A stretch of 64,000 nt of DNA from Tribonema minus (Eukaryota > Sar > Xanthophyceae > Tribonematales > Tribonemataceae): NCBI GenBank assembly GCA_017506865.1, contig JAFCMP010000192.1:28830-92829 (forward strand), read 5' to 3'. The translations under genes were made by a program, and so were the position numbers. The notes below the pieces were generated by a model. That model made no database searches. It was not told where the DNA came from and saw only the letters and a program-made list of their open reading frames with translations. Positions within the stretch are counted from its first letter, which is position 1, and every line of letters begins with the position of its first letter. Below, piece after piece: positions 31,956 through 53,940 of the stretch.

Positions 31956-33338
31956 GCAAGCTCAGTGTTTTGTGCACGCCACAAGCGCCATGCAAGGCTC
32001 CCACAAAAAAATATGAAGTCGGGCCTTAGCTGTGAGGGAAGCATTGCCATCGCAACCAGCACCTGGGCGAAGCTGAAAAACTAACGAGTGACCAAGGCTG
32101 CACGCAGCGCAGTGGCGCCAAACGCTTTCATACTAGTAGGCCCAGGATGGCACTGCAAGTTGGCGTTCTCCCACTACCCCCTAGTGTAATGCTGCTATTG
32201 CCTCGACGGCGTGCACTTCCAAAAGCATGCTGTCACCCTATTCATGGCTCAAAGGGGCATACGTGCCATCGACAGCTTGCAGTAGGGCCCGCTGGCGTAA
32301 TGCAGCCATACCTGACGTAGTCTGACACGTCACGGTAGACGTTAAGGCGGAATAGGTGATGACTGTCAACTTGAAGGAGTCGAACGCTTCAGGATCTTTT
32401 GTCAAAGTTGAAAAGTTTTGGAACAATACAGTCACGTGACGTGTGAAGTTTTGGAACACTTGGCGTTTGAAGGAGCTAGTTCTTGCGCAACAACAGATGC
32501 GAACGTTGATAGCTGGAACAACAGCGCGGCGTCGTATGGACCACGCACTGACCCAACGGCACCCCACAGCCCTGGGAATATAAGGAGATGCGCCGTGGAG
32601 TCAACGGACGACAGGGTGACGACTTATATTCTCACTGGAACCAGGCTATATTCTCAGCACACACACTCTTCACACTTCAGCGCCGCGGCCTCCAGACTGC
32701 GGACTACAGCGACGCCACCGGCGCACACTCCCCAGTATACACGACATCAGGCCACTCGTTTCAAGACTACACAGCAGGGCCTGCGCTGCATATCTGCAGA
32801 CTAGGTACTACGCCCGCTTGCAAACTCCAGCACTGCACCGCTTTGCCCTGTAGTCCCCAGTCTGCAGTCGCTGTGCAGCGCTCCTGCATCCCCAGACTTG
32901 GCAAGGTCGCATGATGTCCTGACACTGCACTGGCGCGGTGGTGTAATAGCCTCAGAAGTAGTGGCGCGTGTCATGTATCCCGCAGACTGCACCGCTTTGC
33001 CTTGTAGTCTCCAGCCTGCAGTCGCTCTGCAGCGCTCTTGCATCCCCAGACTTTGCAAAGTCGCTTGATGTCCTGGCACTGCACTGGTGCAGTAGTGCAT
33101 CAACCTCAGCAGTAGTGGCGCGTGTCATGCAATACTATCCCGCAGACTGTGCCACAATGCCCTTTAGTCTTCAGCCTGCAGTCGCTGTGCAGCACTCCTG
33201 CATCCCTAGACTTTTCAAAGTCGCTTGGTGTCCTGACTCTGCACTGGTGCAGTGCGCCGCACAGGTGCAGTCAATACGGTATTGCATCACTTACGCACAT
33301 GCCTCGTCTCACCCTGCACATGCGCCCACTTTCCAAAT
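31956..33338. other. Non-coding accessory stretch with tandem repeats
   Basis: No gene supported. The right half is occupied by the roughly 155-bp tandem repeat listed separately. Confidence 0.5.
32825..33265. repeat. Tandem repeat, about 155-bp unit, three copies
   Basis: Equivalent points fall near 32834, 32988 and 33148, a period of 154-160 bp. Each unit carries a TGCACCGCTTTGCC-like word, CAGCCTGCAGTCGCT, CTCCTGCATCCC, GATGTCCTG and GTGGCGCGTGTCATG with about 10-15% divergence. Confidence 0.82.
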
Positions 33339-34085
33339 ATGCAGGTGGCAATGGCGTTGGCCGACGTCGTCGGAGTCAACAAAGAAGCTCGCAAGAGCAA
33401 ACATGTCTACGGCAGCGCCAAGGCTCTGCTGACGACACTCGTGCCTGACGACGTCGACGCCAACCTGAGCAAAGCAAAGGCTGATGCTGGGAGACTCAAG
33501 AGCCTCAAGGTGCCGCCACGCAAGGTCGGCGAGACGTTCGCGCTCCTGGAGTCGGTCATTGAGAGTGAGGTACGAGCTGGTGCAATGTGCGCGTCATGCA
33601 CTTGCTGTGTGCACTATGTCATGTGTGACTGATGCACGCGCAGCTCGCAGCTATTTACGCGTGACACTGGCGTCACTTGCCTGCATGGTTGGTTGGTGTC
33701 TGATGAGAGCGTGCGCTGATCGATGCGCAAGCAGCAATGTACCCGTTGATTGTGCTCATGGAGTTACTTTGACGTCCCTCAACACTTTATACACGTTGAA
33801 GGCGATAGTGATTGCCTTTGTGTGGCCAAGAAGCGCGCTCGTGACCTGTGGGTATTGTTCCATGAGAGCAGGCGCGAATGCATCGTGTACATGTGCAAGA
33901 CCATGACGTCCAGAGAGATAGGATCGAAATCAATCATTCAGGGTGTCATAGCCCGCCTGAAGACATTGGGATCCTCCCTTCCGTCCACCTTCCGCCCTCG
34001 CAGCGAAGAGGACGAGAATTTTCTAATCAGCTCTGACGAGTTTGCATACTCAGCAAAGACGCTGTTGAACGTGCTGAGTCTTTGA
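33339..34085 (+). pseudogene. Compact unknown ORF fragments, virus- or element-like (first part)
   Basis: Two coding-like segments on the plus strand: 33339-33570 (contains ALADVVGVNKEARKSKHVYG, Lys/Ala-rich helical) and about 33745-34085 (contains VPQHFIHVEGDSDCLCVAKK, DLWVLFHESRRECIVYMCK and FLISSDEFAYSAKTLLNVLS). A GT at 33571 could be a splice donor, or the gap may be an insertion. The second segment ends at a TGA, but the plus-one frame continues smoothly across it (DEYSEQLSNAAYDNDEIEAQ) into the next feature. That suggests a single-base frameshift in one ancestral gene. No family recognised. Confidence 0.5.
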
Positions 34086-34086
34086 C

Positions 34087-37000
34087 GAGTATTCAGAGCA
34101 GCTGAGCAACGCTGCATATGACAATGACGAGATTGAAGCACAGTTGTACAACCGAACCGACGTACAGGAAGGATCCGGCAGACCCACAGTGTTGGGTGTG
34201 GCACTTACACTTATGGCTGTAATGGCAACTGCGTACACGGTGCGTAACGTTGTCAACCACCGTCTGCATCAGCCAATGGCCGACTATGTCGAAACCAAGG
34301 ACAATGGCACAGATATTGTGCTTGCCGCACAGTCATCTGCGTCCCCCTTTGGCATCCAAGCGGCGCCCATCCTTCCCAGTGTGCCTGTACACAGCACAGC
34401 AACATCTGCACCTAGCGCCGCAGGCAAGTCAACTGCCAACGTCGTGGAGCAACACATCACGGCGGCGACGAGGCAATCCCTAACTCCGTTGCAGCTCCAG
34501 CAAGTTGTGGATGACATTCGCTCGATGGGAGACAGCGTGCCGCCGGCTCTCCTCAAATTCTCGGCGAAGGCGGTAGAAGCCGCAGTCAAGTACGATCGTG
34601 ACATGAGCCATCTAGCTGATATCCGTGACGGTGCAAGTTCGGGTCTGGCTGATATAACGGCCATCAAAGACATAGTTGGTGTGTGCAAGGAGGGTGCGCC
34701 ATCTGCGGTGATGGCGCATGCCCACTGGCAAGATCTGTACTTGAGGACACGTCATGCTGCTCCACTTTGGTTTTTATGGATGACGAGATGCAGGAGCTGG
34801 CATCCGCTGCCCTGGCGACATGCAACGCCAACATGCTCAATGCCATGGGAGATGGAGCGGCAATGACAGATACCGTGTTGGCAGAGATTGTGACTTCTGC
34901 GGACGGTGTGCCGGAGCTCGCCCCGGTGATGAGGCATGCGCTAACAGCCATTTCAGATCACGAACTTCAGAATGCATACATGGGTACTCTGGGGGGGGTG
35001 ATGGCGCGCCGCCAGGACATGCAGCTCCCTCTCACACCAACACAGAAGGCCGCATCGTGCATTGCCAAAGTTGCGGAAGGAGAGGGTGATGACATTTCGA
35101 ATCTGAAGAGCGCCGCAGCGCTCAATGGGAGCATGCAATCGCTGCAGGAGGCAGGTGTAGTCGCAGCGAGGCGTGTTGCGCACAAAGCCGTGCTCGACAT
35201 GAACGCAGGCCATCTGCAACACTCTTATGAACAAATGCCTGATGGTGCCAGGAGCGCTGAGTCTGACGCTATTGTGAATGGCGCCTCCGAACTCATAGAT
35301 GCTGTCCAGAACGCCAGCAACGGACCGCAGGAGCTCACGCGGGCATCCGATATGGTGGACAGCGTCATCACACAATATGAGGGGGCAGATTTTGACACGC
35401 CGCTCAAAACAGCGGGAACTGAGGTGGTGCGCAGAATGGTGAGTGGAGCTTTAGAGAATGGGCTGACAAGTGCAGTGCTGAGAGAAATCGAACAGCTTCC
35501 TGCGCGGGTGAAGGGAGCAGAGACTGGCAAGCTCGTGAGCGATCTGAGAGAAGACGTGGCATTCTCCAACGCCTTTGAAGCTGTCAAGTCAGCTGCTTCA
35601 ATGGTGAATGTCGGCGCTGTCACTCGCCATGGGCTGGATGATAGCGGAAGAGAGATAGAGATTTTTGCGCAGCCTCTACAACAGTTGACTGCAATACAGT
35701 CGCAAGCAAATTCAGAGCACGTGAAGGGGCTGGTGCAGAAGGAGCAGAAGCACCTGATGGACCTCGCAATAGAAAATGTTGCACGCCAAGGAGAGCACAT
35801 TGGCAACGCGGCACTGGCTGAGCTGGCGGAGTCCAGCTCAGATGGCCGAATCATGAGTGTCATGGTGCAGAGAGTCGACAGGTGTGCGGCAAAGGCAACC
35901 AAGGCAGGCTTGTTTGAGACACCAGATGGCGTGAAGCTTCACAAAGCACTCGCAGTGATCAGCCAAGCGGCTGCATTCTTCAACAGCTTCATGAAATTGA
36001 GAGAAGTCGTGGTGGGCGGCGCCCTCCAACAATCGATAAAGAAGCAGATTCGAAGCTTGTCAGCGGAGCGCTGGAGTCGGCAAAGCTGTTGGGGGGTGCA
36101 AGAGTCACCTCAGTTGTGGATGATGCTGTAGCCGACAGGGTTTCGACGCGATTGCAGTCCTCCCACATCAACATCAGCACAGCACCAGACTTCATAACGC
36201 AAGGTGAGGCGGTGACGTCGGCCGTCAAGCTATGGCTTGAAGTGAGCAGGATGTCGCTCACCCCGTCAACCCCCAAAGCAGCAGCAAAGCTCATGGAGAA
36301 GACTGGCGATGTGTACGCAGCTATCAAGAGCACGGTCCAAAGTGATTTGTGGCGTACGAAGCTGGTGAACAGAGGGCCAGACGGTCAGGATCATTCACGG
36401 CGCGTCCACCGCACCGTTCGACGCTGACGACTTTACGCTTCTGGTTGAATGCGCCACGTCGAATGAGTGCGCAAACACGCACGTCGTAACGGCGGCTCTG
36501 GGTGTCATGACGGCGAAACACATGGTGCAGCACGACGCCCTCAAAAAGCCACAGATATGCGTGCGTTCACCCAACATCTTTCGGAACAAACGAAATCTGC
36601 GGTCGTAAAGGAGTACATTGAGGGGGCTGGGCACCCGTTTCATCATGACGAGATGTCACTGGCCAACCTCGGCGCGGTTCACGCCAATACAGATGCAAAC
36701 ATAGTTGTTGAGAGTGTGGGCAAGCTGGCGACTGATGATGCAATCAGTACGGCTCTGGCAGCGGTGTATCAGAGCAAGCTTGATGCCGTTCAGGAAAGTT
36801 CGAGCACGCACGCCATGTTCGGCGCCATGGAGGTGAGCAACGTTGTGCGCGACCTGACCACGCCTGTGCCCCATGTCGTCCCTTCAGTGACATCTGTGGT
36901 TGCTCAAGAGTCGCCACAGCAGGAGACCCCATCCCAAGCGACAGTTGTTGTTTCAGAAGCTATTGATGATGCGTCGCCATCACCAGAGCCAGCGGTGTCC

Positions 37001-38087
37001 GAACCGATTTTGGAAACCTTGGTGGTCCAGCCAGCTGTGGAGCAAGAAGTCGCTGTTGCCGACAATGATGCTGTATCAGCAGCTGCATCAGCAACAACTG
37101 AACCAGCAGCAGATACCACTGCACAATCAAGTGTTGATGCTGTGAGCGAGAGCTCATCTGCGCTGTTAACACGTGTGCTGGAAGGACTCGAGAGCGGCAG
37201 CATGACTGCCAAAGAAGCGATGGAGCTCCTGACGCCTTTGACAAAGATGACCGCAGTGCGAGGTGACCGCGCAATACAGAAAGCGAATTTTACGGCGGAG
37301 CAACTGCAAGACAATCAAAGCATCATCGACGGTACCTCGGTACTGGGAAGCATCCGGCGTCCGAATCTGGCGAAACAGATGCAGGTCGGCTGCAGCAAAC
37401 AAGGTGAAGACCTGTTCAAGCGGTTGACCGAGCTCAAGGCCAAGACGGACGCTAATATGGACACTCATGGTAAAGCCACGCTTGTGAGCAAACAGAATTC
37501 GCCAACCCGTGTCACACTAGAGAGACACGCGACAAGGGTAAAGCGCACTCAGCCTGATAGGCGCGCCAAAAGGGACAGAGGCACGACTTTTGAGGTTCTT
37601 GCAACATTGTCAGGGTCAGGCCAAGACTTTCTAGATGCAGTCAGGTCCCTTGCACTGGGCACAGAAAGCGAGGCAAAGATACTGGCAGTAGTTGAACCGT
37701 TCCTCAACGTACCTAATGAGCAGCTGGGCATGACCGTTGAGGAAGTGGCTGCTGCACACAACTCAAACATTATTAGTGGTGCGTTGAATGCGCTCCAGGC
37801 CAGAGTGATTCTGACGACGCTAAGGTACTCCAGCAGCATCACATACCGCCACCTGAGCAGCGGTGGCGGCCGCTGCGGCGTTAGCTGTCAGTGGAGAGTG
37901 GGACTCCTGTGCAGCCATGATGGAGGAAGCCGTGAGCAACCCCGGCATGTACGACCAGCTAGTGTTTGCGACTGGGTTCGCCGGCTTCGCAACTGGACCC
38001 GTGTGCGCGGCTGGCGGTAACGCTCTGCTGGTTGGGGGGGGCGCAGCTGCGGGAGGTGTTGCAGGCGCTGCTGCTGAAGAAGTTTGA
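34087..38087 (+). pseudogene. Large broken intronless ORF, unknown, about 1300 codons
   Basis: Five or more overlapping plus-strand frames follow one another with continuous amino-acid character: about 34087-34730, 34700-36040, 36040-36400, 36400-36560, 36555-37840 and 37860-38087. Each switch looks like a small indel, not a splice site. The product would be strongly helical and Ala/Ser/Val/Glu-rich, with one membrane segment near the start (LGVALTLMAVMATAYTV). It also has a Pro/Thr/Ser/Glu-rich middle (about 36870-37150) and a Gly/Ala-rich hydrophobic C-terminus (GFAGFATGPVCAAGG). No conserved enzyme motif seen. The absence of introns over 4 kb contrasts with every cellular gene here and points to a viral or mobile origin, or to a recently acquired orphan gene. 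The breaks suggest it is dead, unless they are assembly errors. Confidence 0.5.
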
Positions 38088-38093
38088 ATCAGG

Positions 38094-38408
38094 TTGCAGG
38101 GTAGAAGAGACGCACTGGAGGCTCAGGATGACATGTTTCAGCTTTTCTTGAGGTGGGAACGACTCAACTTTTGCGAGAGTCTGGACATGTCTAATCCAGT
38201 GGTTGTCCTAGACGCACTGCGAGTTCATAGGGATGTCAAGGGTGGTATTCTAAGGCAATATCTCCGCATGCATGAACCCAACTGGATTGCAATTGCCGGT
38301 GATGCAGCAGCAATCAAAGCTGTACGCAGTGAGATTGAAAATGAGGAGAAACGGCTGCAAACGACACATCCGGCTGTTTGGGCAGACATGCAATTGATTT
38401 CCCCCTAA
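38094..38408 (+). CDS. Unknown small ORF, 104 aa
   Basis: Intact plus-strand frame starting 6 bp after the stop of the broken ORF, with prokaryote- or virus-like spacing. Predicted helical and charged (DDMFQLFLRWERLNFCESLD; DVKGGILRQYLRMHEPNWIA). No membrane segment and no recognised family. The tight spacing suggests it belongs to the same compact array. Confidence 0.4.
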   Translation: MQGRRDALEAQDDMFQLFLRWERLNFCESLDMSNPVVVLDALRVHRDVKGGILRQYLRMHEPNWIAIAGDAAAIKAVRSEIENEEKRLQTTHPAVWADMQLISP

Positions 38409-38424
38409 ATAATATAGATCAAGA

Positions 38425-38655
38425 GTGAACAATATGATTTCAACACTTTTGCGCAAGATTGAAAAGCATTGGCTGACATATCCATCATCTGTTATGCCGT
38501 GGTTGCTGGCAGTGTGCAACGCAATATTTTTATTTGTCACCGTCGTTGAGGCACGACGGACTGAGTACAAAAGTGACAACATTGCCATGATCATTGGAAC
38601 TTTTGCAGCCATTGCCTTGGGTTTCATGGTCGATGTGAGGCCACGTGCTGATTGA
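38425..38655 (+). CDS. Small two-segment membrane protein, unknown, 76 aa
   Basis: Intact frame 16 bp downstream of the previous ORF. Two hydrophobic stretches, SVMPWLLAVCNAIFLFVTVV and NIAMIIGTFAAIALGFMVDV, are separated by a charged loop, giving a likely two-helix membrane hairpin. Small hydrophobic proteins of this kind are common in large DNA viruses, but no specific match is recognised. Confidence 0.45.
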   Translation: MNNMISTLLRKIEKHWLTYPSSVMPWLLAVCNAIFLFVTVVEARRTEYKSDNIAMIIGTFAAIALGFMVDVRPRAD

Positions 38656-38816
38656 ATTTGTGTCATGAGTAGGTCATACTGCAAGTCACAGAGTGGTAGA
38701 TGGTGGTCACGCCGGCCTTGAGCAGTGCGTGCTGACACTTGCGGCACGGACCCCCGCAACACTCCTGCGCTGTTGACTCACACTCCGTAAAGGATTAGTG
38801 ACGCGCATTCAACCTC

Positions 38817-39165
38817 AATATTGAACTTTGGCCATCCCCGAATCTATTGAACTTTGGCCATCCCCGAATCTTTTGTCAGAAATACTTTTCACAGGCAAAA
38901 GCAAAAACGGCGAGGGACGACGCTCTCCTGATTTCTGCAATTGCCAAAGATATTCAGCATCAATATTGAACTTTGGACATGCCCCGAATCTTTAGTCAGA
39001 AATAGTTTGCACAGGGCAAAAGCAAAAACGGCGAGGGACGACGCTCTTCTGATTTCTGCAATTGCCAAAGATATTCAACATCAACATTGAACTTTGGCCA
39101 TGCCCCGAATCTTTAGTCAGAAATAGTTGCAATTGCCAAAAATATCCAACTTCAAACTTGAAGCA
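38817..39165. repeat. Tandem repeat, about 120-bp unit, 2.5-3 copies
   Basis: The word ATTGAACTTTGG recurs at about 38820, 38846, 38965 and 39086 (period 119-121 for the long units). Each long unit carries CCCGAATCTTT, GTCAGAAATA, AAAAACGGCGAGGGACGACG and TTTCTGCAATTGCCAAAGAT. The last copy is internally deleted. Confidence 0.88.
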
Positions 39166-39534
39166 AAATGTGCATGGTACAAATTGACATGTATACTCGT
39201 GCTTATTATGCGTAGCGATGATCATCAGCTCATCGCCTCCAACAAATCTTATCTTTTTCCACAAGCGCCTGTAGTGTCGCCGGTCACCTCACATATCACC
39301 TCTTTTGCGTGCATGCCAGCATTCAAACTACCTAGTGGTGGATATGCACGACTGCATGTACCGAACACTGACCCCGTTGGCTCCCCCACCCCCTATGCAT
39401 GCATGCCTGCACACAGATCGCCTGGCGGGTGATATGCACCCACCGCAGAACTCCGCCCCCCCCCCCCCTTGTTCATGCACGCCAGTGTCTAACTGACCCC
39501 CGCGCTCCATGATGCGCCATGCGCGCCCGCCTTC

Positions 39535-41923
39535 TCAATGGATGCCTGCCGCCTTCAGCTCCTGCTTGACACGCAGGAAGTACCCGCTGTCGGGGCACCT
39601 GCGCAGCGGTGAGGGCCGAGGTGTGCCAGTCAGTCAGAGGGACAGCTACAGCAAAGTGTGCGCACGCGAGCCACACGCAAGCCACACGCAAGCCACACGC
39701 AAGCCACACGCAAGCCACACGCAAAGTGCGCAATGGAGAACACTCACCCGAATGCGGTTGCGCCGCCATCCATGCGGGTCTTCTGGTGTATGCTGGCCCA
39801 CACCACCATGTTTGATATGCCAGTGGTAAGAGATGTCCTGACGGTGAACAGCAGCCTGTGCTCGAACGCCCTCTTCAGCAGCTCCAAAATCTCCCTGCAT
39901 TGCGCGGCAAACAATGTGCAGCACCGTCAGCTGAGCCCGTGCAACACCACATTGCGTATACAACGACACTGTACAGGCACCGTGGCTGACATCTCACCTG
40001 CCCTCTGGCATGTCGGGGAGGTAGGCGACGCGCTTCGCGCCAGTGAAGGGGCGCCCTGGGGCGGGGGGCGCCTGAGGCCGCACCTGTACGGTCGGACAAG
40101 CACCACCACACAAATTGACGTGTGTGGGACGCTGGCATTACGCACGTGGTGTAACGTGCAACATGAGCAAGCATGTGGGGGCACATAACGTCACTTACCC
40201 CGTCAGGTATGTCATACGTCATGACGATGGTGCCGGCGTTGCTGTAGCCGGAGCAGTCCATGTCAGTTCTTGTGATGGTCATGGTGCCATCCGGCTGGTC
40301 GCCCATGGCAGCACCGTACCACCTATTGCAAGTGGGGCACTTCGGGCTACACCGGTGAAAGACCGCCTTGATGCAGGCGGCGTGCATGAAGTGACTGCCA
40401 CACCTGTAAAAGGCGTAGCGCCTGCTTGCCATCTTTGCTGAAGCCCTGCGATTCAAGTACATCATGTTGGATGGGGTACGTGTGAGTCATTGGCACAGAA
40501 GGCTCTTAATAGATACATGCCTCAACGTCACCACAATGTCACGCACACCATACAACCAAACCGCTCACCCTCACCTCTTGGCACAGCGAGCACAGATCAT
40601 CGGCCTTGCAATCCTTAGTGCAATCCTCCGCCCTGCGCACTTCAGCATCTGCGAGCGAGTGCATAGCTCCTGTCCCACCCGCCTTCACAGTCACCACCGT
40701 CGTGCCAGCACCCGAGCCCGCGCTGCCTGTGTGCCTGCGCCGGCCTGAAAAAACCGCCTGCGTTTTTTGGAAGCGTCAGTGTCAAGGGCGCGCTTGCGCT
40801 CGTACGCGCCTTCTTGGCCGCCCTAGCGCCCGAAGTTGTTGCGGATGTCGCTGAAGTCGCCGCAATCGGTGCAGCGCCAGAGGTAGCAATGCGCACAGAC
40901 CGTGCCATGCCGCCGTGCGCGTTGCACTGAGTGAGCGCTGTCAGGTCCACCTCAAAGGCGACGAGGGCCGGCGTGGCGAGGTGAAGGATGACCTGCGCGC
41001 GCCCGTGCTCGTTGCAGAGGCGCAGAGTATCGCTGCTGCTGGCGTCATACGCACGCCACGTGTGAGAGTCATCGAGCCACTCCCACTGCTCAGGGGCTGC
41101 ATTTTAAGCAGGCAGTAGATGGGGATGTGGTGGTGGGTGAGGTGACGTCAATGCCGGTTACGAACACACAAGTGCATGCCATTCCATGCGGTGCTGTGGC
41201 GCGCATACACACTGTCTCACCTTGCTCTGTGTAGCGCCTGATCTCTCTGGAAAAGCCGGTTTGGATGTTGGTTTGCGTCATCTGCGAGGTGCAGCAGACA
41301 CATATCCCGACAAGGCATGTCAGTTGGTAAACACATTGATGCCACCACACTGGTTGATGAAAAGAGATGCTGAAGCAGCCTCGGTGCAGTGGTAAATTTC
41401 TCACCTCGTCAAAGTCAATGTCATATGATCTGCCCGCTCCAACTGTGGTGATCTTGACACTGTTCAGTCCCCTACTGAAGGCATCCTCCATGACGTGGCA
41501 TGCCGCATCGTCAAAGGGGTCCCAGAGGTGAACGGGGTTGCCGTCTGCATCTGTCAGCTGCGGGTTGCATGGAAGGCAATGCAGTGTGTGCAAAGGTGAG
41601 CAGCTTACGATCTCTAGCCACTCGAACGACGAGTCTCCGCCGGACAGAGATAGTCAGCTTTGAGTAGCATCTATGATACTTCGTGACCAGGAATGCGTTT
41701 CTTACAGCAGAGGCTACAGCTACTGACGCAATGGACAGCAGCGATGCCAGTAGCTTACAGCAGCAGCAACAGCAGCTCGCCAAGAGGCGCCACCGCGACA
41801 GCAGACAGCGGCAAAATCTGTGCCCCCAGACAGGCTCATGCTCACCGACTCTCCACTGGTATCGCAGTACTGCCATCGCACACCTGGCATGGCAGACATG
41901 CCGCCATCGCCACCGCTCGCCAT
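39535..41923 (-). CDS. Deltex-family E3 ubiquitin ligase (WWE-WWE-RING-DTC)
   Basis: Nine minus-strand exons: 41846-41923, 41405-41557, 41221-41281, 40806-41096, 40575-40744, 40199-40432, 39998-40083, 39748-39894 and 39535-39598. Phases agree and give 427 residues. WWE domain 1 spans residues 16-95 (RWQYCDTSGES, then SYDIDFDE and MTQTNIQTGFSREIRR). WWE domain 2 spans 99-165 (PEQWEWLDDSHTWRAYD). A Lys/Ala/Ser linker follows, then a RING at about 244-290 (DLCSLC, YRCGSHFMHAAC, KCPTCNRWYG). The Deltex C-terminal domain runs from 291 to the end (GDQPDGTMTI, GYSNAGTIVMTYDIPDG, FTGAKRVAYLPDMPEGR, TSLTTGISNMVVWASIHQKT, and a final VKQELKAAGIH). DTC domains bind ADP-ribose/NAD+ and can ubiquitylate ADP-ribose. 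Intron 5 has only 61 nt, and exon 6 uses an AAG acceptor. The start (41923) is the first of two ATGs and could be 24 nt later. The neighbour is a WWE-PARP gene, head-to-head. Confidence 0.92.
39671..39725. repeat. 11-bp minisatellite (CCACACGCAAG)n in the last Deltex intron
   Basis: Five contiguous copies of CCACACGCAAG, the last with a terminal change, inside the intron 39599-39747. Confidence 0.92.
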
Positions 41924-42336
41924 CGCCGTGGGTTTGAGTGTGATCAGATTTCAGTGGCCAAATATGCTATATTGCCATGGACTTATTGCTTAAATTCTCG
42001 CCGCTTTGAACTGAGCATGATTTCACACACAGCCCATACGGTGGGGGCAGAGGAGTGGAGCTGAGTGGCAGGCGGCGTGGCAGGAGGGGAAGGGGTCTTG
42101 CGAGGATGGTCAAGGTACGTCCATGTAGTTCATCAGACTTATAGCGGGTGGCGTGGCAGTTAGCAGCAGCTGCTGCTGTGATTTCTGATTGTGCAGCAGG
42201 TGGCGCACATCGTGGTGGCTCGGCCTAAGATGGCCACGCCATGGTGCTTCTGCTGTAATTACATGACGCCCGTAATCACCAGATCAGAGCGCCGCCTAAC
42301 TGCATCCCTCCTTTGCTGTGTGCACTTTGCCTGCAG
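41924..42336. promoter_or_regulatory. Putative bidirectional promoter of the Deltex and PARP genes
   Basis: The Deltex start is at 41923. The first possible PARP start is at 42106, or within the exon beginning at 42337. Both promoters must fit in about 180-410 bp. AT-rich words (CCAAATATGCTATATT, TTATTGCTTAAATTC) occur at 41959-41998. Inferred from arrangement, not from a recognised element. Confidence 0.45.
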
Positions 42337-45300
42337 CCGCCAAAGTGCAAGGTTCCGACCTGCAACACAAATGCTCGCTCCCAGCCTGAATGGCATGGGC
42401 GCTGCTGGACGTGTGGTCAAAAAACGGAGAGTACCCCGTATGCGCTATGCCGGGCTGCATAAGGCCTGTGCATAAGGGCGTTGGCTGCACTGACCACTGT
42501 GGCAAGCCCATCCTTGCGGCCCAGCCCCAACCTCCGCCCACAACACCCACTCCCAGCACTAGCAGCACCAGCGGCGGCGGCAGCGGCGCCAGCGGCAGCG
42601 GCGGCGGCAACAGCAAGTGCGGCGGCAACAGCAAGTGCGGCAAGAGCATCTTTGGTGGCGCCAGCAGCGGCGGTGGCAGCAGTGGCGGCGGCAGCAGCAA
42701 GATCGCCAAAAGCACCTTCGGTGGCGCCGGCGGAAGCAACGGCGGCAGCAGCAAGATCGCCAAGCGCACCTTCGGTGGCGGCGGCGGTGGCGGCGGCAGC
42801 AGCAGCAAGATCACCAAAAGCACCTTCGGTGGCGTTGGTGGCGGCGGCGGCAGTAGCAGCGGCAGCGCTGGCAATGGGAAAGGCAAGAAGCGCGCGTCAT
42901 ACTTCCTTGACGACAGTGATGATAAAGATGACGACAGCATGGGCAGCATCGGCAGCGCGGGCATCAACATCCGTGCTACTGCCGCCGCGGCCGAGCGGCC
43001 CCACGGCAAGAGTCGTCGTGTGTCTGCGCCGCCCGCCGCCGATGAAGACAGTGATGACGATGTCATCATCATCAGCCCCCCCACCACACCTATCATTAGT
43101 CGTAGCAGCAGGGGAGGCAGCGGAGGCGGCGGCGGTGGTGGCGGAGGCGGAGGCGGCGGCAGAGGCAGCGGAGGCGGCGGCGGTGAGGGTGGCAATGCCG
43201 CTAGCCGCGCTGCGGTGTGGGAATGCGAGGTGGACGGAGAATGGGTGCCATACGGCGCTGACATCACGGCGCAGCTGGAGAAGGCTTGCAGGGATGGGGA
43301 ACGGAGCGTGCCGTATGAGCGCAAGGGCACGCGCTATGTCATCAACCTGATCATCATGCATCAGGCACTGGACAGCCCGGACAGCCAGCACGGACTGCTT
43401 GTGCGCCGACTTGAGAGCTCCAACGTGGAGGTGGAGGCCTTGCTGCGCACAATACGCGAGCGAATGCTGGAAAGCGAGGCGGACACCGCACGGCGCGAGC
43501 AGCAGCAACGGGAGTTGGCGGTGGCGATTGCACAGGCGCGGGCGGAGGCGCAGCGCGAGAGGCAGAGTGGCGCTGCGGAGCTGGTGTGGAGAGCGCCTCA
43601 GCAGACCATTACTGTGGGAGCGGTGCAAGGCACGCGCCGCTCTGTCACGCGGGCGGACATTAAGGACAGCCGCGTGACACGTGACATTGAACAGTTCCAC
43701 GCCGCCAGCGGTCACTTCTGGTGCGTCCACATCTCATGTGCCTATCGGTAGTGCAAGCATTTCAGCATCATCCCAGCAATGTCACCTCGTGCTCGTCATC
43801 TCACACACCACACACTTGCACTCGTCAACTTCATTGCGCGCAGGGAGCTCATGAATTGCCCAGGTGCTGCAAAGAACCTGGCCCACCTGGGACTTGGCAA
43901 TGTGATGCCGGTGAGTCCCAGGCAATGGTCTTGTCGTGCGTGCATCAGTTGCATAGCGTTGTGATGCTCATGAGCAACGATATGGTTCATCCATGTGCTT
44001 GCGCGCAGCGTGTGCGTAGGCCTTGAAGTTTGACATACTGACACACAGTGTCGTGCTCTACTGTCTGCATGACCTCAGACAACCGTTACCCGGGTGGATG
44101 TGTATGAGAGCGCAGCCACCAGGGAGGCATATGACAAGATGCGTGCTCAACTTGCAGATGACCGCCGTGATACACAGGTGAGCGTGCGGTCATGTGAACC
44201 ACTGGTTGCGTGACGATGGCATGTATCACATCATGCTGATGGCGCGTCCACAACGCCTTCTCCTCGATGTAGCGCAGGAGGTTTGCACGCATGTGGTCGA
44301 TGCCATCCTCTCTTGATTCGTCATGCGCTGCGTGCGCGTCATGGCGTCAATGTAGTTGTGAACGGTGCACAGCAGAAGACAAAAGAACCGCTTTAAATCA
44401 AATGCATTCATTCATGGCATCAACGGCACGTCCACGACGTCAATTCGACGACTCTGGATCGCAAAACAAGACGGCAACTCATGAATATTTCAGTGTTGAT
44501 GGTCCATACATAAACCCCACCACAAGTTGAAATTCAGGAGGAACAAGAATGCTGCACCCTCCATGTCACGATGGCGTCTGTCGTCCATCTGCTCGCGAAC
44601 CCCATACGCCTCTTTGTCTTCTTTATCGTGTTCCTTTGTGACATCGTGCTCATGGTGTGCCGTCGTCATGCTGCGCACAGACAGACCAACATGGGGCAGC
44701 GCTGCGCGTGACGAACAGGGAACTTGGAAGCCGTCGGCGCACAATAGGGCACTGAGCACGAAGTGGATTGCGCGCATCTTCATACACGAGTACATGTACA
44801 CATTTTATCGCAGTTCATCAGACGCACTAATGCCCTGCACGTCGCTGCTGCACATGACGCAGGAGACCTGGGTCTTTCACGGGTCTGATCGGAAGAACGT
44901 GAAGAAGATATGTGTGGGCGGCTTCAAGGTCGGCGGCGACGGCATTGCTGTCAAGAACGGCGCTATCTGTAAGTCATAGCATGCTACATTCATGAAAAGT
45001 AGTGTCAGGATCAGGTTGCTGCAATGGTTGTATTGCACAGCGTATCTCACATAGCAACGCGCGGCAACTGAGTCATGCATGCGATCACATGACCCGAACA
45101 CATGTCGTAACATGCTGCAATACATGTGAATACATGACCTTGTCTCACTTCCTTGTTATTCACACCGCTGTTGCAGATGGCAATGGAGTGTACACCGCCA
45201 TCGGCCCCTCTGCCCCCCTCAGCTACGCCACGTCGCATGGCGCGCATTCCAAGGGCTGCGTCATCCTGGCGCGCGCCATGAAGGGGCGTCACACGCGCCA

Positions 45301-45445
45301 GAGCAACTGGCTCAACTCGCCCGACGCAGGCGACAGCTGGGGGACGGCGGACGCCAATGGGACGAAACCAGCAGGCACCGAGGACTGGGTTGTTTTCCGC
45401 GCGACGGCGCAGCTGCTGCCAGTGTACGTAGTGCACTTTGAGTGA
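42106..45445 (+). CDS. WWE-domain PARP-type ADP-ribosyltransferase
   Basis: Exons: possibly 42106-42114 (ATG GTC AAG before GTACGT), then 42337-43720, 43844-43910, 44079-44177, 44863-44968 and 45177-45445. From 42390 on, all phases agree to the TGA at 45443. Order of parts: two Cys-rich zinc-ribbon-like units (CKVPTC...CWTCG and CAMPGC...CTDHCG); Gly/Ser low complexity with four K-(S/R)-x-FGG repeats; an acidic patch (DDSDDKDDD); a WWE domain at about 43210-43410 (VWECEVDGEWVPYG); a coiled coil; and the PARP catalytic domain with ETWVFHGS, NGVYTAIGP and QLLPVYVVHFE. The H and Y of the H-Y-E triad are present. The third position reads as Asp or an adjacent Glu (TEDWVVF), so mono- or poly-transfer is undecided. 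The two Cys units are in different frames, separated by an A6 run at 42419-42424, which suggests a one-base indel. WWE domains bind poly-ADP-ribose. Confidence 0.88.
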
Positions 45446-46016
45446 CTCACAAAGGCGCGTGCACGCGCAAGATGTTGAGCTCTGGATGAGCTAGCAGGGG
45501 GCGGGGGTGCACAGAAAGCGCACTCGGATAGGTGGATCAGGTGAATAGGTCGTGGGCTGGCATAAGTGACATTTAGCTTCAGCTCGGAGGGTTGGTAGCA
45601 GCAGCGCATAAGCAGTGGGTGCATCGGCGGGCGCGCAACAAGTAGGTGATAAAAAGGTGCTGGCCATGCTGCATGCTCACGATGTGTTAATAAGTCATAA
45701 ACATAAGTGTTACTGATTTGTGGGGCTGTACTCTTGTTATCACATTGTCGAATGCTGTGTTGAAAGTTGTCTTGCAGTACACAACTCTTGTTGACAACAT
45801 TTGACCATACGCACGTGGTGTGCTCTGCACAAGCGGTTAAATGAATGCAGGCAGATGACGTGTACAGAGCAGGTGAAGTGCAACGTTCCTGGAGCGGGCG
45901 GACAATGGTGCACTACGCACAAAAGAGAGGGCAACATACAGCTGCAACTGCATAGCCTGTTACAATTGCAAGTATGACATGTACACAATTCAGTTTATTT
46001 TCACCCACTTCTGGCA
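45446..46016. other. Intergenic after the PARP gene
   Basis: Nothing recognised in this 570-bp stretch except AT-rich sequence with possible 3' processing signals for the PARP gene. Confidence 0.5.
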
Positions 46017-46669
46017 TTGAAGCACATGGGGAATAAGGTGTCATGTGATCAGTTGACAGTGGAGGAGATGGAGAGACGCTACCTGCAGCAGGCTTGCATA
46101 AAAAACTCTGCAGGGTATGTCATGGCAGTCCCGAAGGCAGGTACAATCGGGCCTAGCATTTTCCTGAAGGCGAGCATCATCCTGATCACGAAACGTCTCG
46201 GTGTACAATGCTTGATGAGATCCTTGGCGATGTGAACTGTACTGACAACTGCGCTGCTCAGGTGCACTTCTACATTGAAATGCCGAGCGTGATCCGCATG
46301 ACTTGCACATCGCAGAGGCCTGCCAGATTGACTGACGCTACCGCAGATGTATATGCGCCCTCGTTCAATCTGCACATGACGCTTGATGCGTACCAGAGCA
46401 GGCTCTTCTCACCTGACATGTGCGCATTGCATACACATTGTGCTGATGTCTTTCTAGAGATGCGTGGCTTGTTTGTGATATGTCATAGGTCAGCTGCAGC
46501 AGGAGCGGATCCTCGCAACGTGAAACTTATTCGTGCCATATTAATGACGGCGTCCACCCTAGCGGACATGTTCGGTGAAGGCATTCTGCAGTTGGCAGAG
46601 TTCTCAACAGATGCAAGAGTGTGCGTGGTGCAGTTCTTCTTGATGCTTAGATCCATAGCCCAGGCCTAA
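46017..46669 (+). pseudogene. Unknown intronless ORF in two overlapping frames
   Basis: A frame at 46017-46235 (MGNKVSCDQLTVEEMERRYL near its start) overlaps a second frame at 46208-46669 (SFNLHMTLDAYQSRLFSPDM; RNVKLIRAILMTASTLADMF) by 28 bp in a different phase. The character is continuous, as if one gene had a small frameshift near 46210. Helical, no recognised family. No intron signals. Together with the next ORF it forms a compact plus-strand array like that at 33-38 kb. Confidence 0.45.
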
Positions 46670-46702
46670 ACACGAGAGGGCATATACAAGACCTACGTCA
46701 AG

Positions 46703-47479
46703 ATGACAAACTCTAAATTTGAAAATGATAGCGTGGCACTAGCCTTGAAGTGCTTTGAAGCTGTCATGCTACTAGGAGACGCATTGACGGTGGAAGCCAT
46801 GCTGCAACACCCTCCCCATCACACGCTTCTGACATACTGGGGAATGAAACATGGCCAGGCCCAGACGTACTTCTTGCAGTCCTGTGGTTACACTATCCTA
46901 AGGGCTCAAGCTGCACCGGGTTTCTCGAAAACACTCGTGCAGAGCAACAGACTCATCACATCACAGAACTTCAGGGATGCTTACTTTGTGTACAAAAATG
47001 CAGAGTTCTCTGGTGGCAGATCTGAGGAGCTAGACCAACGTTTCAGCACCATTCACATTGATAAGATGCACCTCACCCCCTATGGTGATACCTTGAACAG
47101 GATTTTTAATGATGCACGTGACCAAGTACCTCACATTGCGAGAGAGGCCATCGCGACCATTCGCCTCATGTACCAGACACACACAGTCTCACCACCTGCA
47201 ATTGAGACCATGTATCTGTCACTAGAAGCACTGGACAGCATCATGAGTGTTCTCCTTGACAACTACGTCGACAACGGCCTTGTCAAGGCGATCCTTATGG
47301 CACGAGACCTGTTTGTGCACGCTGTGAAGCTGTACATGGTTAAAGCAGGAGCAGACAGCTTCCTTGCAACTCTGCTGACCCACATTCATGAACGAAACAA
47401 GATGTTCAGCACACCTCAGTTAAAAGTCGAACACGTTATCATTGCCCTTGTTCAAGATCACTTAAGAGGAGAAGAATGA
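46703..47479 (+). CDS. Unknown intronless ORF, 258 aa
   Basis: Intact frame that begins 33 bp after the preceding stop. Predicted almost all alpha-helical (ALALKCFEAVMLLGDALTVE; GLVKAILMARDLFVHAVKLY). It includes a more conserved-looking block HIDKMHLTPYGDTLNRIFND. No signal peptide, membrane segment or catalytic motif recognised. Intronless, in contrast with the host genes. It lies directly upstream of an IS4-like transposase remnant and could be cargo of the same element or of an integrated virus. Confidence 0.5.
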   Translation: MTNSKFENDSVALALKCFEAVMLLGDALTVEAMLQHPPHHTLLTYWGMKHGQAQTYFLQSCGYTILRAQAAPGFSKTLVQSNRLITSQNFRDAYFVYKNAEFSGGRSEELDQRFSTIHIDKMHLTPYGDTLNRIFNDARDQVPHIAREAIATIRLMYQTHTVSPPAIETMYLSLEALDSIMSVLLDNYVDNGLVKAILMARDLFVHAVKLYMVKAGADSFLATLLTHIHERNKMFSTPQLKVEHVIIALVQDHLRGEE

Positions 47480-47621
47480 GTACGGATGGCAGCTTCTGGG
47501 ACACACAAACAGCCAGCATGCAGTGCGAGCCTGAGCCCAGACCAGACAATGGCATCAACTTAAGGTGCTGGTAACTTAAGGCTGCAGATGTTGCGATTAA
47601 AAAATGTAGGTATCCCGTAAT

Positions 47622-48480
47622 ATGAACGGGATGCAAGACCTTGCGAAGCGCCTCTTCACCATGCTGTCTCACTCTGATCCATTGTGGCAAAAGAGATCTC
47701 GCAAAATCAACACTGCCTCCATCTTTGCAGCCCTGTGCGCCGCATCACTACACAAGAGGGGGCTACAGCACATCATAGATGCTGACAACAGCTCTTTCAC
47801 GCCTCAGGCACTCTGCAAGGCAAGGAGTAAGCTGCCTGACAACATCTTTCTGGACATGAATGAAGCTTTACAGGGACCTTAACAGCAAGGTCCCCGCTTC
47901 TTTGCGGTTGATGGTTCCAAGGTGCACGTGCATCCCTCTTTTGTCAAGGAAGGGTTCAAGAGCCGAACTAACGACAAACCAGTGTCTCGCCCTGCAATCA
48001 GGCCACTCGCCATGCATTTCCTCAATGCTCGATGTAGCAACCAGAACCTGTTTTGATGCTGTTGTGTCTTCTCACTTCAACGAACGCATGTCTGCGCTTC
48101 ACCACATGAATAGCGCAAAAGCTGGCGACACAATGATATTTGATAGGGGCTACTATCCTTCACAATTGCTGGAGAGAGCTCACTACCTTGGCATCAAAGT
48201 CGTGTTCAGGCTCAAGAGCGATGCTTTCAGGGGTGTGAAACAGTTCTTCAATGCAAGCACCACCACGGCAGTCACAATGGTACGTTCAAAGACAGGGACA
48301 GTTCTTCGTTCACACCTGATCAAGTACTTCATCGACGGAAATGCATTGTTTGACAGAAGGCACACAAGTCAAGTTTCTGTTGCACCATTGATTCTATTGG
48401 ATCAAAATGCAAAACAGAAGCACCTCTGCACTCACTGTAGCGCTCTTTGCCGCCCTCTACTTGTTGAACACGTACGCGCG
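47622..48480 (+). pseudogene. Broken IS4-like (DDE) transposase, 3' end replaced by a LINE
   Basis: The N-terminal frame (47622-47880) contains NTASIFAALCAASLHKRGLQ and SFTPQALCKARSKL. After an in-frame TAA at 47880 the same frame goes on with RFFAVDGSKVHVHPSFV, the first catalytic Asp context (D-G-S). Near 48020 the frame shifts, and DVATRTCFDAVVSSHFNERM and AGDTMIFDRGYYPSQLLERA follow; the latter holds the second Asp (FDRGY). VVFRLKSDAF matches the next IS4-family block. The region with the third acidic residue is not found. The plus-strand LINE begins where it should be. One stop, one frameshift and a truncation mean it is inactive. IS4-like transposases occur in bacteria, in some giant viruses and in eukaryotic IS4-type elements. 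Confidence 0.8.
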
Positions 48481-48489
48481 CATGTACTC

Positions 48490-49972
48490 TGCTGTGTCTG
48501 GCGCAACGCGATCACATAGAGAGCCCAAATTAGCGGGCGACCACGCCTGCCACCGTCTTGGGCCCGCCACGCGGCTGCAACACGTCGCCGCTGGCACCTT
48601 CGGTCCCCTACTCTGGTCGGTCTTGGCGGCCGCGCGCGCGCCCTGCACGCGCGCGGCGAACGCGTCGCGCCTGCCTGAGCCTGACACAGATTGGGACCCG
48701 GCGCACATGGCGATACTGGCGGATTGTGCGGAGCTGTCTGGCCTGCGCAACGGCGTGAGCCGCGCGGCGCGAAGGCTGGAGCAACGGGACGGCCAGTGCC
48801 CCGCCAACGAGGCCACGTATGAGGTGCGCGTGCGCAAACACCCCGCACCACACCAACGCGTGGGTGTGTCGGACGCCGCGCATGACAAGGTGCGAGCGGT
48901 GCTGGCGGCGGCGTGGGCGAGCTGTGAGCTGTACGCGCCAGGGCTGGCGCCGCCGCCTGACCACCACGCCGCCGCCATCCTTGCCGAGGTGGCGCCCGAC
49001 GCCGGAGCCGGCGACCCCGTGCAGCCGCTAGTGCTTACGCCGTCAATGGTGGTGGAAGCGCTGTATACGGCGTCGGCAGGGAGCGCCGCCGGCCTGGACG
49101 GCATGTGCTACGAGTGCCTGTGGGCAGCCATGGGCACGTCGGCACAGGCTGCGGCGGCGGACGACGCTGAGCGCGCCGATGTCATCGACGGCGCCCCTGC
49201 GCCGCCGCTGGCGCAACGCCTGGCAGCGCTCTTCAACATCCTCATCGCAACGCCAGAGGCGATGCCGGACTCCGCGCTGCGTTTATGGCGTGCTGCGGCG
49301 CTGTCGGCTATCGGCACCTCCAGAGCACGCCCGATTGCGTGCTCTGGCGTGCTGCGGCGACTGCTGTCGTCTACCGTGGGGCGGCAGTTGCGGGCAGGAC
49401 TTACGCCGCTGCTGGAGCGCTACTCCCAGTTTGGCTTTGGCATGCCATCGGGTGTTGAGCATGTTGCCACAGAGGCGCGCATATGGCACGAGATGGGCGG
49501 CACTCTGGTCCTACTTGACTGCGAGAACGCCTTCAACACCGTCTGCCGCGTTGCTATTACGCTCGGCCTGTTCCGTTTCTGCCCGGAGCTGCTGCCATGG
49601 TTCCACGCCATATACGGCGGGGCGACAGCGCCGGAGCTGCGCACAGAGCTGCGGCGCGCCGACGGCGCCGCTGTGGATGAGGTGCGTATCATTGAGTCGC
49701 GCCTTGGCTGCCAGCAAGGTGATCCACTAGGGCCGCTGCTGTTTGCGGTGGCCCTAGCACACCTGCTCTTCCCCGGCGGCCTGCTGCCGGTGGCGCCGGC
49801 TGCACCCCCTGAGGTGGCAGGTGACGGCGGTGGCGGTGCCGCCGCCGCGGCAGCGGTCGCTAATGGGGTGGAGCCGCCATCGGTCGCTGGTGGAGGCGCT
49901 GCCGCAGCTGAGCTGGCCAACGACGGTGATGATGGTGTGCATGCCGGTGCCGCCGGTGCCGCGGATCGGCAC

Positions 49973-50004
<32 letters not shown>

Positions 50005-52336
50005 TCCACCACCGCCGCCGCCGCCGTTCTGCGCGTTCCTGGACGACCAGTCGCTGCGACTGCCGGCGGGCTTCGGTGACGGCCACGTGGAGGCGGTGCG
50101 CCTGGTCGCTCAGCGGCTGGCAACGGGTGGCCTGCGTGTAAATACCACCAAGTCGTTGGCGGTAGCGCAGCGGGGGCATGCCTTCGCTGCTGCTGACCGC
50201 GGCCGCCTGGCCCGCATCAACATGCCGTTCGTCGATGCCACAACGCCCATGGACGCCTGCGGATTTGCCACAGTTGGCGTGCCAGTGGGCACCGCCATTT
50301 ATGTGGCTTCTCAGCTGCGGGCGCACATTGGCGCCGCCCACATGTGGCGGATGGCATGGCAGCTCATTGGCATGGCGCGAAGGCACTTCCAAGCTGCCTT
50401 CCGCATTTTCCGCTGGTCGTTGTGCAAGCGCATGGGCTTCCTGGCGTGCAATGTCGACCCGCTGGTGGGCGTGGCACACTTTGGTGCCTATGACGGCTTC
50501 TGCCTGTGGGTACTGGAGCGCCTCCTGCACCTCCGCGGTGCAGCCAGCGCGGCCGCCATGCGGATGCACCTCCTGGCGAGCAGCGCAAGTGGCGACGCCG
50601 TTGCCGCCTCCTTTGGCGGCCCACTGGTGCTTCCGCGCTACTCGTCCGTGTTGCCGCCGTGGGCGCCGGATTGCGCCGGCAGGGTTGCCAGCGCACTTGG
50701 CGGCGCTGGTGGCACGGCCGGCTCTGGCTCTACGCATCGCGCAGTTGCCCGCGCGTGCCGGCGGTTTGGGGCTGCCTCACTTGCGCACCACCTGTGTGTG
50801 TGCTTTTGTGGGCCAGCTCTCCACCACCCTGCACAAGCGGGCTCTGCGCATCATGGCCGATCTCCCCCCCCCCCGTGGTGCCTTTGGGGGAGCCCCCGCT
50901 TGCGCTTGACGGCGTCGGCCAACCGCCTGAGGCGGGCCCATTACCGCCCCTCTTCCTGGCTCTGCGAGCCAGCGTGCAGCTGCTATGGAGGGCGTTTGGT
51001 GTCCAGGCCCAGCCTGACGGCGAACTGGTGGCGGCGCCTGACGCCCTCCAACCCTTCACGCCTGAGGCGGTGCCCCCCGCAGCACTTCAGCGCGTGCTCC
51101 CTGCGCCGGTCCTGGTGTGGGTCGCTAGCCCCAGCGTGTCGCCGACGGCGGCGTTGGTGGCTGCCGCAGCTGCAGATGCCCCCTTGCCCGCCAACCCTGC
51201 AAGTGGCGAGGGAGAGCCGCTGCTGCCGCCACCACCATTGCCACCGCTGGCGCCTGCGTTAGACCAACCCGCCCCTGACGACGACGACGACGACCTGCGG
51301 CACGATGAACGCGCGCGTCACCCGCAGCGCTTCCTCTCCGCGCACCTTGCGCGCCTGACCTGGCGACTGCTGGTGCGCGACTTGCAGCGACTGGACGGCG
51401 CCGGCAAACCCCTCTTGGCACAACTGCGCAGTCAGAGCGGGCCCGGCGCACTGTCTTGGCTGGACGTCCCACCGAGCGCCGGCGTCGCAATGACACCGGT
51501 GGCAGCCGTTACCATGACACTGGTGGCGCTGTTTGTGGAGCCGTGGGGAGTCACTGGTGACAGCTGCCCTTTCCAGTGCTGCCCTACGACGCCCGCCCGC
51601 CCCACCTGTGTGCATGTTCTCAGCTGCCGCGCTCAGGCCGCAGCGTGGCCGGACGGCCACACATGAGGTGCACAAGCGCTGCCTGCAGCGACTCTTGCGG
51701 TCGTGTGGTGCGCCATACTTCCTCAATGAGGACATCACGTCCTCTGATCACGAGGGCGACCGCATTGATACGGTGGTCCTCCCTGGCGTCCTACACATGT
51801 GTGGCGACCCCGACTTTGAGCGCAAGGGCGTGGCGCTTGACAACTGCGTGTGTGCACCTACTGCCGCCAAGTACTGTGAGCGCGGGGCGGCCGCGACGGT
51901 CAATGGCTTTGCGACGCGCTCGGCGGAGGCATACAAGCGCGCGCGGTATGTGGGGCACTTCGACGCCGAGCGGTGGGTAATGGTGCCCTTTGTTCAAGAG
52001 TCCTTCGGGCGCTTGGGTGGCGCCGCGCGCGCGTTCATCGCGCGTTTGGCGGCGCATGCCGCTGCGCGTGTGGGCGGCAGCGAGCGTGTGGTGCATCGGC
52101 GGCGGAGTGTGTTGCGCCGGCACATTGTTGTCACCCTGTCTGCCGCGCTCGCGTGCGAGCTGGCGGAGCGTGTTTTGGCGTACGTGCGCTGCGCGCAGAT
52201 GAGCGGTCGGGCTGTGCGCCCGGTGTCGTCACTGCTGGCGGCGGCGCGCTGAGTGACTGTAGCATTTGCACGGTTGATGATGTCGTAGTACGCATTTGCA
52301 CACAAGCCACATGGGGCCACCCATAATAAATAATAA
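48490..52336 (+). mobile_element. LINE-type retrotransposon with reverse transcriptase and C-terminal nuclease-like domain
   Basis: The main frame is open from 48407, but its first codons overlap transposase sequence, so the element probably starts near 48490. RT blocks appear in order: SAGSAAGLDGMCYECLW; RPIACSGVLRRLLSSTVGRQ; the A block VLLDCENAFNTV; the B block GCQQGDPLGPLLFAVAL; the C block FCAFLDDQSL with the DD pair; and GLRVNTTKS. A long poly-Pro tract lies between B and C (about 49970-50030). After about 50670 the coding frame changes three times; one change sits at a C12 run (50864-50875). The last frame, to 52252, has LHMCGDPDFERKGVALDN and HFDAERWVMVPFVQESFG, resembling a restriction-type nuclease module. 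The 3' end is a short UTR and a CCCATAATAAATAATAA tail. Frameshifts make it probably inactive. Confidence 0.87.
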
Positions 52337-52464
52337 GACCTATCGGTGAGCGCTTCCATTTCATTCTATTCCACTTCAGCATGTTCTCTGAGCTGTCTGA
52401 CTGTGATTGCTCTTCCAGCTTGCATGTTTGCATTTATGACAGCATCACATGGTAGCCTGTTTCA

Positions 52465-52705
52465 TATACAGCATTTTCAAGTCACACTTGGTGTGTACCA
52501 GCATCAACCACTGTGTTGGAGGCTGCTTCTGATGAATTCAAGCTCCCCTGCATGTTGTATCATCATGTTCCATCTTATGGATTATCTTGAAGTTATAATG
52601 TCGAAGTCGTGAGGCCAGCGCTCTGAAATTACTTTTCACAGCGGCTGACCCAAAATCGGCCGGTACGACGCTCGCTAGATTTTCGTAAATGCGTCATTTA
52701 TTATT
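52465..52705. repeat. Dispersed/direct repeat of about 240 bp, copy 1
   Basis: Starts TATACAGCATTTTCAAGTCA, includes CACTGTGTTGGAGGCTGCTT and GAGGCCAGCGCTCTGAAATT, and ends near CGTAAATGCGTCATTTATTA. Over 90% identical to the copy at 53161-53402. In this copy the right end runs into unrelated sequence (TTGGAATC), so it shows the state without the LINE insertion. Confidence 0.88.
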
Positions 52706-52857
52706 GGAATCTTTTGCAAGATTCAAGTCACAGATTCAAGTCACTCGGTGAAGGACTCGAAAAATGACAAACTAGCTGAACGGCTCTGAAGTTACCTGCA
52801 CCATGTCTTACCATGTCATGACTTATTTAGTTTTTCAAACAAACACTTAACATAAAA

Positions 52858-53035
52858 AGGCAGAGGTAACAGAACGGCAGATGTGATAGAACGGCTGAGG
52901 TGACAGAACGGCAGAGGTGATAGAACGGCAGAGGTCACAGAACGGCAGAGGTGACAGAACGGCAGAGGTAACAGAACGGCAGAGGTAACAGAATGGCAAA
53001 GTAGACAGAACGGTAAAGTAGAGAGAACAGCAGAG
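52858..53035. repeat. 17-bp minisatellite (ACAGAACGGCAGAGGTA)n
   Basis: About ten head-to-tail units of ACAGAACGGCAGAGGTA with scattered changes (T for C, TAGA for CAGA), between the two 240-bp repeat copies. Confidence 0.92.
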
Positions 53036-53160
53036 TAGTGGAACGGTTCAAGATACTTGAACGGCTACAAACGGGGTGTAACAACTATAAGGTTGTGTAC
53101 AGGCGGATGCAGACGAACGGCTTTGAAGTTACCTACACCATGTCTCACCACATTACGACC

Positions 53161-53875: not shown

Positions 53876-53940
53876 TGTTAACAATTGTGGCCACTACACA
53901 ACTGATCCTTGCCACCAACAAGCAATGAACAGTCACTGCT

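Follow-up and report, generated by a model that had tools for sequence, protein, structure and literature searches.

A head-to-head Deltex and WWE-PARP gene pair in the yellow-green alga Tribonema minus

The two genes and the interval between them

The window analysed here is a 64,000-nucleotide stretch (C192:28830-92829) of the 158,181,000-base assembly of Tribonema minus, a xanthophyte stramenopile of the PX clade; C192, C30, C24 and similar labels are contigs of this same assembly, and positions without such a label are those of the window. A Deltex gene on the minus strand and, on the plus strand, a gene with a WWE domain and a PARP catalytic domain adjoin there head to head (Table 1), both beyond chance expectation. 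The splice models, the Pfam matches and the GenBank proteins bear out the preliminary description of this stretch, which had reported a real pair of this kind in a protist and had placed it correctly. In GenBank both products are hypothetical proteins, JKP88DRAFT_255718 (P0001) for the Deltex and JKP88DRAFT_316418 (P0003) for the PARP. Among the matches listed, we found no report in the open-licence literature of a Deltex-PARP pair outside animals, nor of ADP-ribosylation genes in Tribonema.

The Deltex gene has the nine exons and the WWE-WWE-RING-DTC order previously ascribed to it, the architecture being based on Pfam and on inspection of the residues, zinc ligands included. This domain order is that of DTX1, DTX2, DTX4 and Drosophila Deltex, from which the window protein differs by a phenylalanine at the position of H594 and an arginine at an otherwise constant glycine. 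The splice model codes for 427 amino acids without an internal stop, and its eight introns, of 61-288 bases each, are all GT-AG. Pfam WWE matched two stretches (1e-24), Pfam DTC (PF18102) matched at 9.9e-49 over profile positions 2-133 of 133, and thus the full domain, and zf-RING_2 (5e-4, 20.7 bits) stayed under its cut-off of 27.3. In the RING, eight of eight zinc ligands are present in the splice model, seven of them common to all 32 other rows, and at residue 268 the compared rows have either H (20 rows) or C (12 rows). P0001 reads through in the same frame past exon 4 of our model and leaves out the first RING cysteines; the splice model is preferred because all eight ligands are then present and because the C24 paralogue has a matching stretch (EDCT, then C..C). 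In the DTC domain, His394 and Glu420 are kept, corresponding to H582 and E608 of DTX2, which PMC10810221 gives as the catalytic residues.

From 42390 to the stop the WWE-PARP frame is uninterrupted, its five exons (the first 42390-43720) coding for 623 residues. An ATG in frame with its Gly-rich part lies at 42390, and the MVK start of P0003, in which the Gly-rich part is spliced out, fits an ATG at 42106. The two ATGs of the pair are therefore 182 bp (PARP start at 42106) or 466 bp (42390) apart. Pfam PARP scored 39.1 bits on the splice model (7.5e-10) and 40.6 bits on P0003, with a cut-off of 26.7. The His and Tyr of the H-Y-E triad are kept. The third position would be Asp by register with PARP12, although the alignment has an insertion there and the structure model is weak at 311-340 (blocks of 55-59 in predicted local distance difference test score, pLDDT); Asp stands in the likely third position in 11 of the 12 PARP-family rows with a residue there (alignment A5). 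Section 9 of PMC2964712 does not list Asp among the third-position choices of clade 3 and gives Ile or Val for clade 3E. Both by sequence and by fold the window PARP is nearest to PARP12, with the tankyrases tied in fold, and it shares with PARP12 and the clade 3E WWE-PARPs a WWE domain ahead of a C-terminal ADP-ribosyltransferase (ART) domain. It differs from them in the likely Asp, in its expanded family in Tribonema and in the absence of a CCCH finger, which, like a macrodomain, was not detected by Pfam (0.001 on the splice model, 0.1 on P0003). The residues needed for a putative ADP-ribose writer (His, Tyr) and ubiquitylator (His394, Glu420), the roles already proposed for the two proteins, are thus kept.

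The 182-bp interval may act as the promoter of both genes. It is the same at 181 of its 182 bases (99.45%) in a second copy of the locus on C30; we rejected this as a demonstration of a promoter since, in our judgement, it is no clear excess over the 98.6-98.7% identity between the two copies in part of the third PARP intron and in the Deltex 3′ flank. The promoter scan made of the interval was of the bacterial type and is uninformative here.

Table 1. Features of the Deltex/WWE-PARP locus (window positions)
Feature	Position	Strand	Details and basis
Deltex gene	39535..41923	minus	9 exons, 427 amino acids; splice model, no internal stop
Deltex exons	41923-41846, 41557-41405, 41281-41221, 41096-40806, 40744-40575, 40432-40199, 40083-39998, 39894-39748, 39598-39535	minus	splice model
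Deltex first WWE	41221..41923	minus	exons 1-3, residues about 15-93; Pfam WWE, best stretch residues 37-93
Deltex second WWE	40891..41088	minus	exon 4; genome WWE match C192:69720-69917, 38.4 bits; DTX1 WWE chain 8r5n
Deltex RING	40328..40592	minus	residues 246-286, spans exon 5/6 intron; eight C/H ligands
Deltex DTC	39538..40303	minus	exons 6-9, residues 295-426; Pfam; DTX2, DTX3L and DTX1 chains; residue counts
Interval from Deltex ATG (41923) to first possible PARP ATG (42106)	41924..42105		candidate shared promoter; coordinates
WWE-PARP gene	42106..45445	plus	possible first exon 42106-42114, exon(s) to 43720, 43844-43910, 44079-44177, 44863-44968, 45177-45445; splice model; P0003
Cys-rich N-terminal stretch	42337..42430	plus	out of frame with WWE-PARP part in window, in frame in C30 copy; aligned copies
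PARP WWE	43212..43370	plus	genome WWE match C192:72041-72199, 35.7 bits; Pfam WWE 2.8e-7 and 9.8e-8
PARP (ART) catalytic part	44079..45445	plus	His242, Tyr277, likely Asp341 (P0003 numbering)
Duplicated block	35450..44398		C30:398122-409121, three pieces, 96-98%; DNA search

Relatives of the Deltex and the PARP

The DTC family occupies three places in the genome, on C192, C30 and C24. A first protein search with the Deltex gave 2 proteins from 7994 scored candidates, having probably been flooded by alanine-rich words; a search with the Deltex region gave 323 matches, of which 120 were listed. Thirty-one of these, picked by hand, were joined with two Tribonema models in a maximum-likelihood tree of 33 RING-DTC sequences (184 columns), without vertebrate DTX1 or DTX2 rows. 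The C192 and C24 Deltex proteins are sisters in this tree (91.1 in the Shimodaira-Hasegawa-like approximate likelihood ratio test, SH-aLRT; 95 bootstrap) and together with the brown algae they form one side of a split (89.9/95). Across this split fall the animal DTX3/DTX3L rows, in company with a moss, Klebsormidium, Tetrahymena and others, and there the deep nodes are weak. Over RING-DTC the C24 protein is 59-61% identical to four brown-algal proteins (Ascophyllum, Ectocarpus, Pylaiella and Undaria). The brown-algal proteins have the same architecture as the window Deltex, the Ascophyllum row without most of the first WWE, but the C192 protein is much more diverged. A WWE-Deltex is therefore nothing unusual for an ochrophyte alga, and the C192 gene is, by its place in the tree, a fast-evolving duplicate.

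The WWE-PARP belongs to a large family, for which match counts (23 and 28) are lower bounds. About 18 PARP catalytic loci were found, on C192, C137, C519 (two), C78, C161, C295, C90 (four), C553 (two), C85, C335, C113 (two) and, weakly, on C13; the C161 and C295 loci look like mutual duplicates, and the Pfam PARP search found a further, different PARP on C126. A Deltex neighbour occurs only at the C192 locus and at the truncated C30 copy of that locus. No brown-algal relative of the PARP was met in the protein search, which is weak evidence as only the 7994 candidates sharing most words were scored. Some of the family members are clustered, with four genes on C90 (616-653 kb) and two on C553 (243-259 kb). 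Five of the 16 PARP-family rows (P0006, P0009, P0010, P0012 and P0013) end in C-x-x-M (CVVM, CEVM, CCVM, CAVM, CSIM), which we take to have the look of a prenylation box; the window PARP has no such end. The two C519 PARPs (L026, P0008) carry a long N-terminal part with a Cys/His-rich start that by eye is like a zinc-binding E3-like region, with no Pfam match.

In regards to the vertebrate DTX3L-PARP9 pair, the likeness is that a Deltex-family E3 and a PARP-family protein are encoded head to head across a short gap (182 or 466 bp here), and the preliminary description had taken this for the same pairing and considered either an ancient linkage or independent convergence. DTX3L is not known to have a WWE domain, whereas the window Deltex has two in tandem and falls in an ochrophyte clade; the window PARP, unlike PARP9, combines a WWE domain with a retained His, resembles PARP12 most closely and gives no macrodomain match in Pfam. 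The DTX3L and ARTD9 genes are described as head to head (PMC4070648), DTX3L as having RRM and KH domains (PMC10810221, PMC13224862), and PARP9 as carrying two macrodomains together with Q-Y/S-T/S (PMC2964712 section 9). Orthology of the two genes to DTX3L and PARP9 was not found, for the Deltex from the DTC tree with its weak deep nodes and for the PARP from its nearness to PARP12 and its WWE domain, set against the PARP9 of PMC2964712. Since both the Deltex and the PARP are of a different class, and only the C192 and C30 loci are paired, the likeness is therefore not that of a shared pair. A linkage held in common with the animal pair is highly improbable: the tree, the domain make-up and the nearest PARP class all differ, the contig of the slow-evolving C24 Deltex shows no PARP-family match, and PMC13224862 describes PARP9 as having been duplicated from PARP14 relatively recently. 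With such a linkage unlikely, convergence or chance remain; the Tribonema arrangement most likely arose separately, and in our main reading it would be convergent with DTX3L-PARP9 and not inherited with it.

The second copy and the repetitive surroundings

The duplicated block has one other place in the genome, on C30, and breaks off within intron 3 of the PARP model. Apart from itself, the sequence beyond the block (44399-45500) had just two matches in a DNA search, of 81 bp and 48 bp, both on other contigs, and the GenBank protein at the C30 locus (P0017) ends without a PARP domain. The C30 Cys-rich stretch (acceptor 42337) continues in frame into the Gly-rich and WWE parts for 449 codons, whereas in the window it is out of frame; a short run near 42418 differs in length between the copies. 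The Gly-rich part has two gaps between the copies, of 18 bases each and thus a multiple of three, and its coding is therefore favoured. One-base and run-length differences between the copies can be assembly errors or mutations. That C192 is an allelic contig of C30 was disfavoured: in a BLAST comparison of the full window with C30:390001-410000, matches were confined to the block, its own repeats and a single 137-bp piece. Of two genome-wide queries with the flanks (25001-35400 and 45450-54000), neither reached C30 outside a 136-bp repeat, with 39 of 147 and 40 of 357 candidates scored. A duplicated block rather than a haplotig is favoured, though not proven.

Multi-copy DNA lies on both flanks, with at least 62 and at least 83 matches, the second count including the window itself. 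A reverse transcriptase-like open reading frame (ORF) at 48392-51262 matched RVT_1 at 1.7e-6 with 28.4 bits, just under the cut-off of 29.6, and six of the seven flanking ORFs had no Pfam match at 0.01. Virus- or element-like blocks had been suggested on both sides; the repetitive character of the flanks is confirmed, but no viral relative was found in pattern-seeded IMG/VR scans with the Deltex alignment, the PARP-family alignment and two flanking ORFs, from which records of the Tribonema genome or of near ones may be missing; on this basis a viral origin of the pair was rejected.

Several repeats and ORFs were observed in these flanks. Just downstream of the Deltex a 121-bp tandem satellite (38845-39128) is found that recurs on many contigs, on C30 less than 30 kb from the contig end, and two long plus-strand ORFs (34653-36131 and 36467-38020), partly within the duplicated block, have no Pfam match. 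The 136-bp repeat (52329-52465) is also present at C30:386101 and C30:397452, just past the break in the C30 PARP. Four contigs (C30:386101-397588, C193, C81 and C190) carry it in pairs with a spacing of about 11.35-11.37 kb, which might be the terminal repeats of a large element; on C112 and C517 the spacing is 23-25 kb.

With such surroundings it is quite possible, if somewhat doubtful, that the Deltex and the PARP are chance neighbours, two independently acting genes forming a compact divergent pair in a repeat-rich, duplicating stretch. The multi-copy flanks agree with this, as does the fact that of the roughly 18 PARP loci only one, with its truncated copy, adjoins a Deltex, while the slow-evolving Deltex is unpaired; the locus was moreover chosen by scanning for striking neighbours. 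However, the activities of both proteins concern one and the same small chemical group, and two such genes would seldom come to lie within 1 kb of each other by random placement, with about 2e-4 per Deltex by our own estimate, which ignores the number of features scanned and the clustering of expanding families.

A working pair or a relict

The reading that we put first, with a confidence somewhat short of even, is that a duplicate of the ochrophyte Deltex came to lie head to head with a WWE-PARP of the expanded family in the Tribonema lineage, and that the two work together as writer and ubiquitylator. The PARP would use NAD+ to place ADP-ribose on its targets. The Deltex would bind these modified targets with its WWE and DTC domains and, together with an E2, use His394 and Glu420 to attach ubiquitin to the 3′-hydroxyl of the ADP-ribose; both genes may be driven from the short interval. 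The chemistry predicted for the two proteins would fit a module.

A number of observations, beside the limits of the placement estimate, weigh against a working pair. In the window the N-terminal frame of the PARP is interrupted, with the Cys-rich stretch from 42337 lying outside it, and in the Deltex Arg377 replaces the glycine of the TVGTS strand, which is Gly in 32 of 32 other rows (28 of 28 in alignment A6), a constancy that is our own observation and no published criterion; a Cys also stands at a position with Tyr in 26 of 28 rows. On C30 that glycine is kept, but the Deltex there carries a stop within its second WWE as well as a one-base gap in exon 6, and the PARP catalytic exons were not found, either by the DNA search with 44399-45500 or by tblastn of C30:390001-410000. 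The branch of the C192 Deltex is long, 0.84 substitutions per site as compared with 0.15 for C24, and among the 23 and 28 genome matches of two family searches none is on the C24 contig. Each copy of the pair thus carries lesions or changes at constant positions, and these signs of decay speak against its being a working pair.

The same lesions and unusual changes, together with the long C192 branch, could mean that the pair is a relict, C24 being the working Deltex and the C192 and C30 copies both losing function, which we consider rather unlikely. The Deltex copies show little constraint between them, with 5 silent codons as against 13 amino-acid-changing codons and a stop (0.0166 at silent and 0.0144 at amino-acid sites, uncorrected); the shared PARP exons differ by 0.0405 per silent and 0.0207 per amino-acid site. 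However, the C30 copy is already broken, so that the low constraint between copies says little about C192, where the nine Deltex exons are all open with GT-AG sites and retain the catalytic residues, and where nothing interrupts the PARP model between 42390 and its stop. The one-base differences, moreover, may be assembly errors.

Beyond the tentative reading of two cooperating neighbours, a bolder version, which we hold to be unlikely, is that a stramenopile independently built a divergent writer and an ADP-ribose-ubiquitylating E3 (a WWE-WWE Deltex and a member of an expanded PARP12-like family with Asp at the likely third triad position) into a fast-evolving stress or antiviral module, convergent with the interferon-induced vertebrate pair. 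If the products do cooperate, the kind of writer-and-E3 gene pair seen in vertebrate immunity would have two or more separate origins, in different classes of Deltex and PARP, and the physical and regulatory coupling of the two activities would then be favoured as such. Even without cooperation, a tandem-WWE Deltex is common to brown and yellow-green algae and the WWE-PARP family is expanded in Tribonema, and ADP-ribose signalling in ochrophytes is therefore directly testable.
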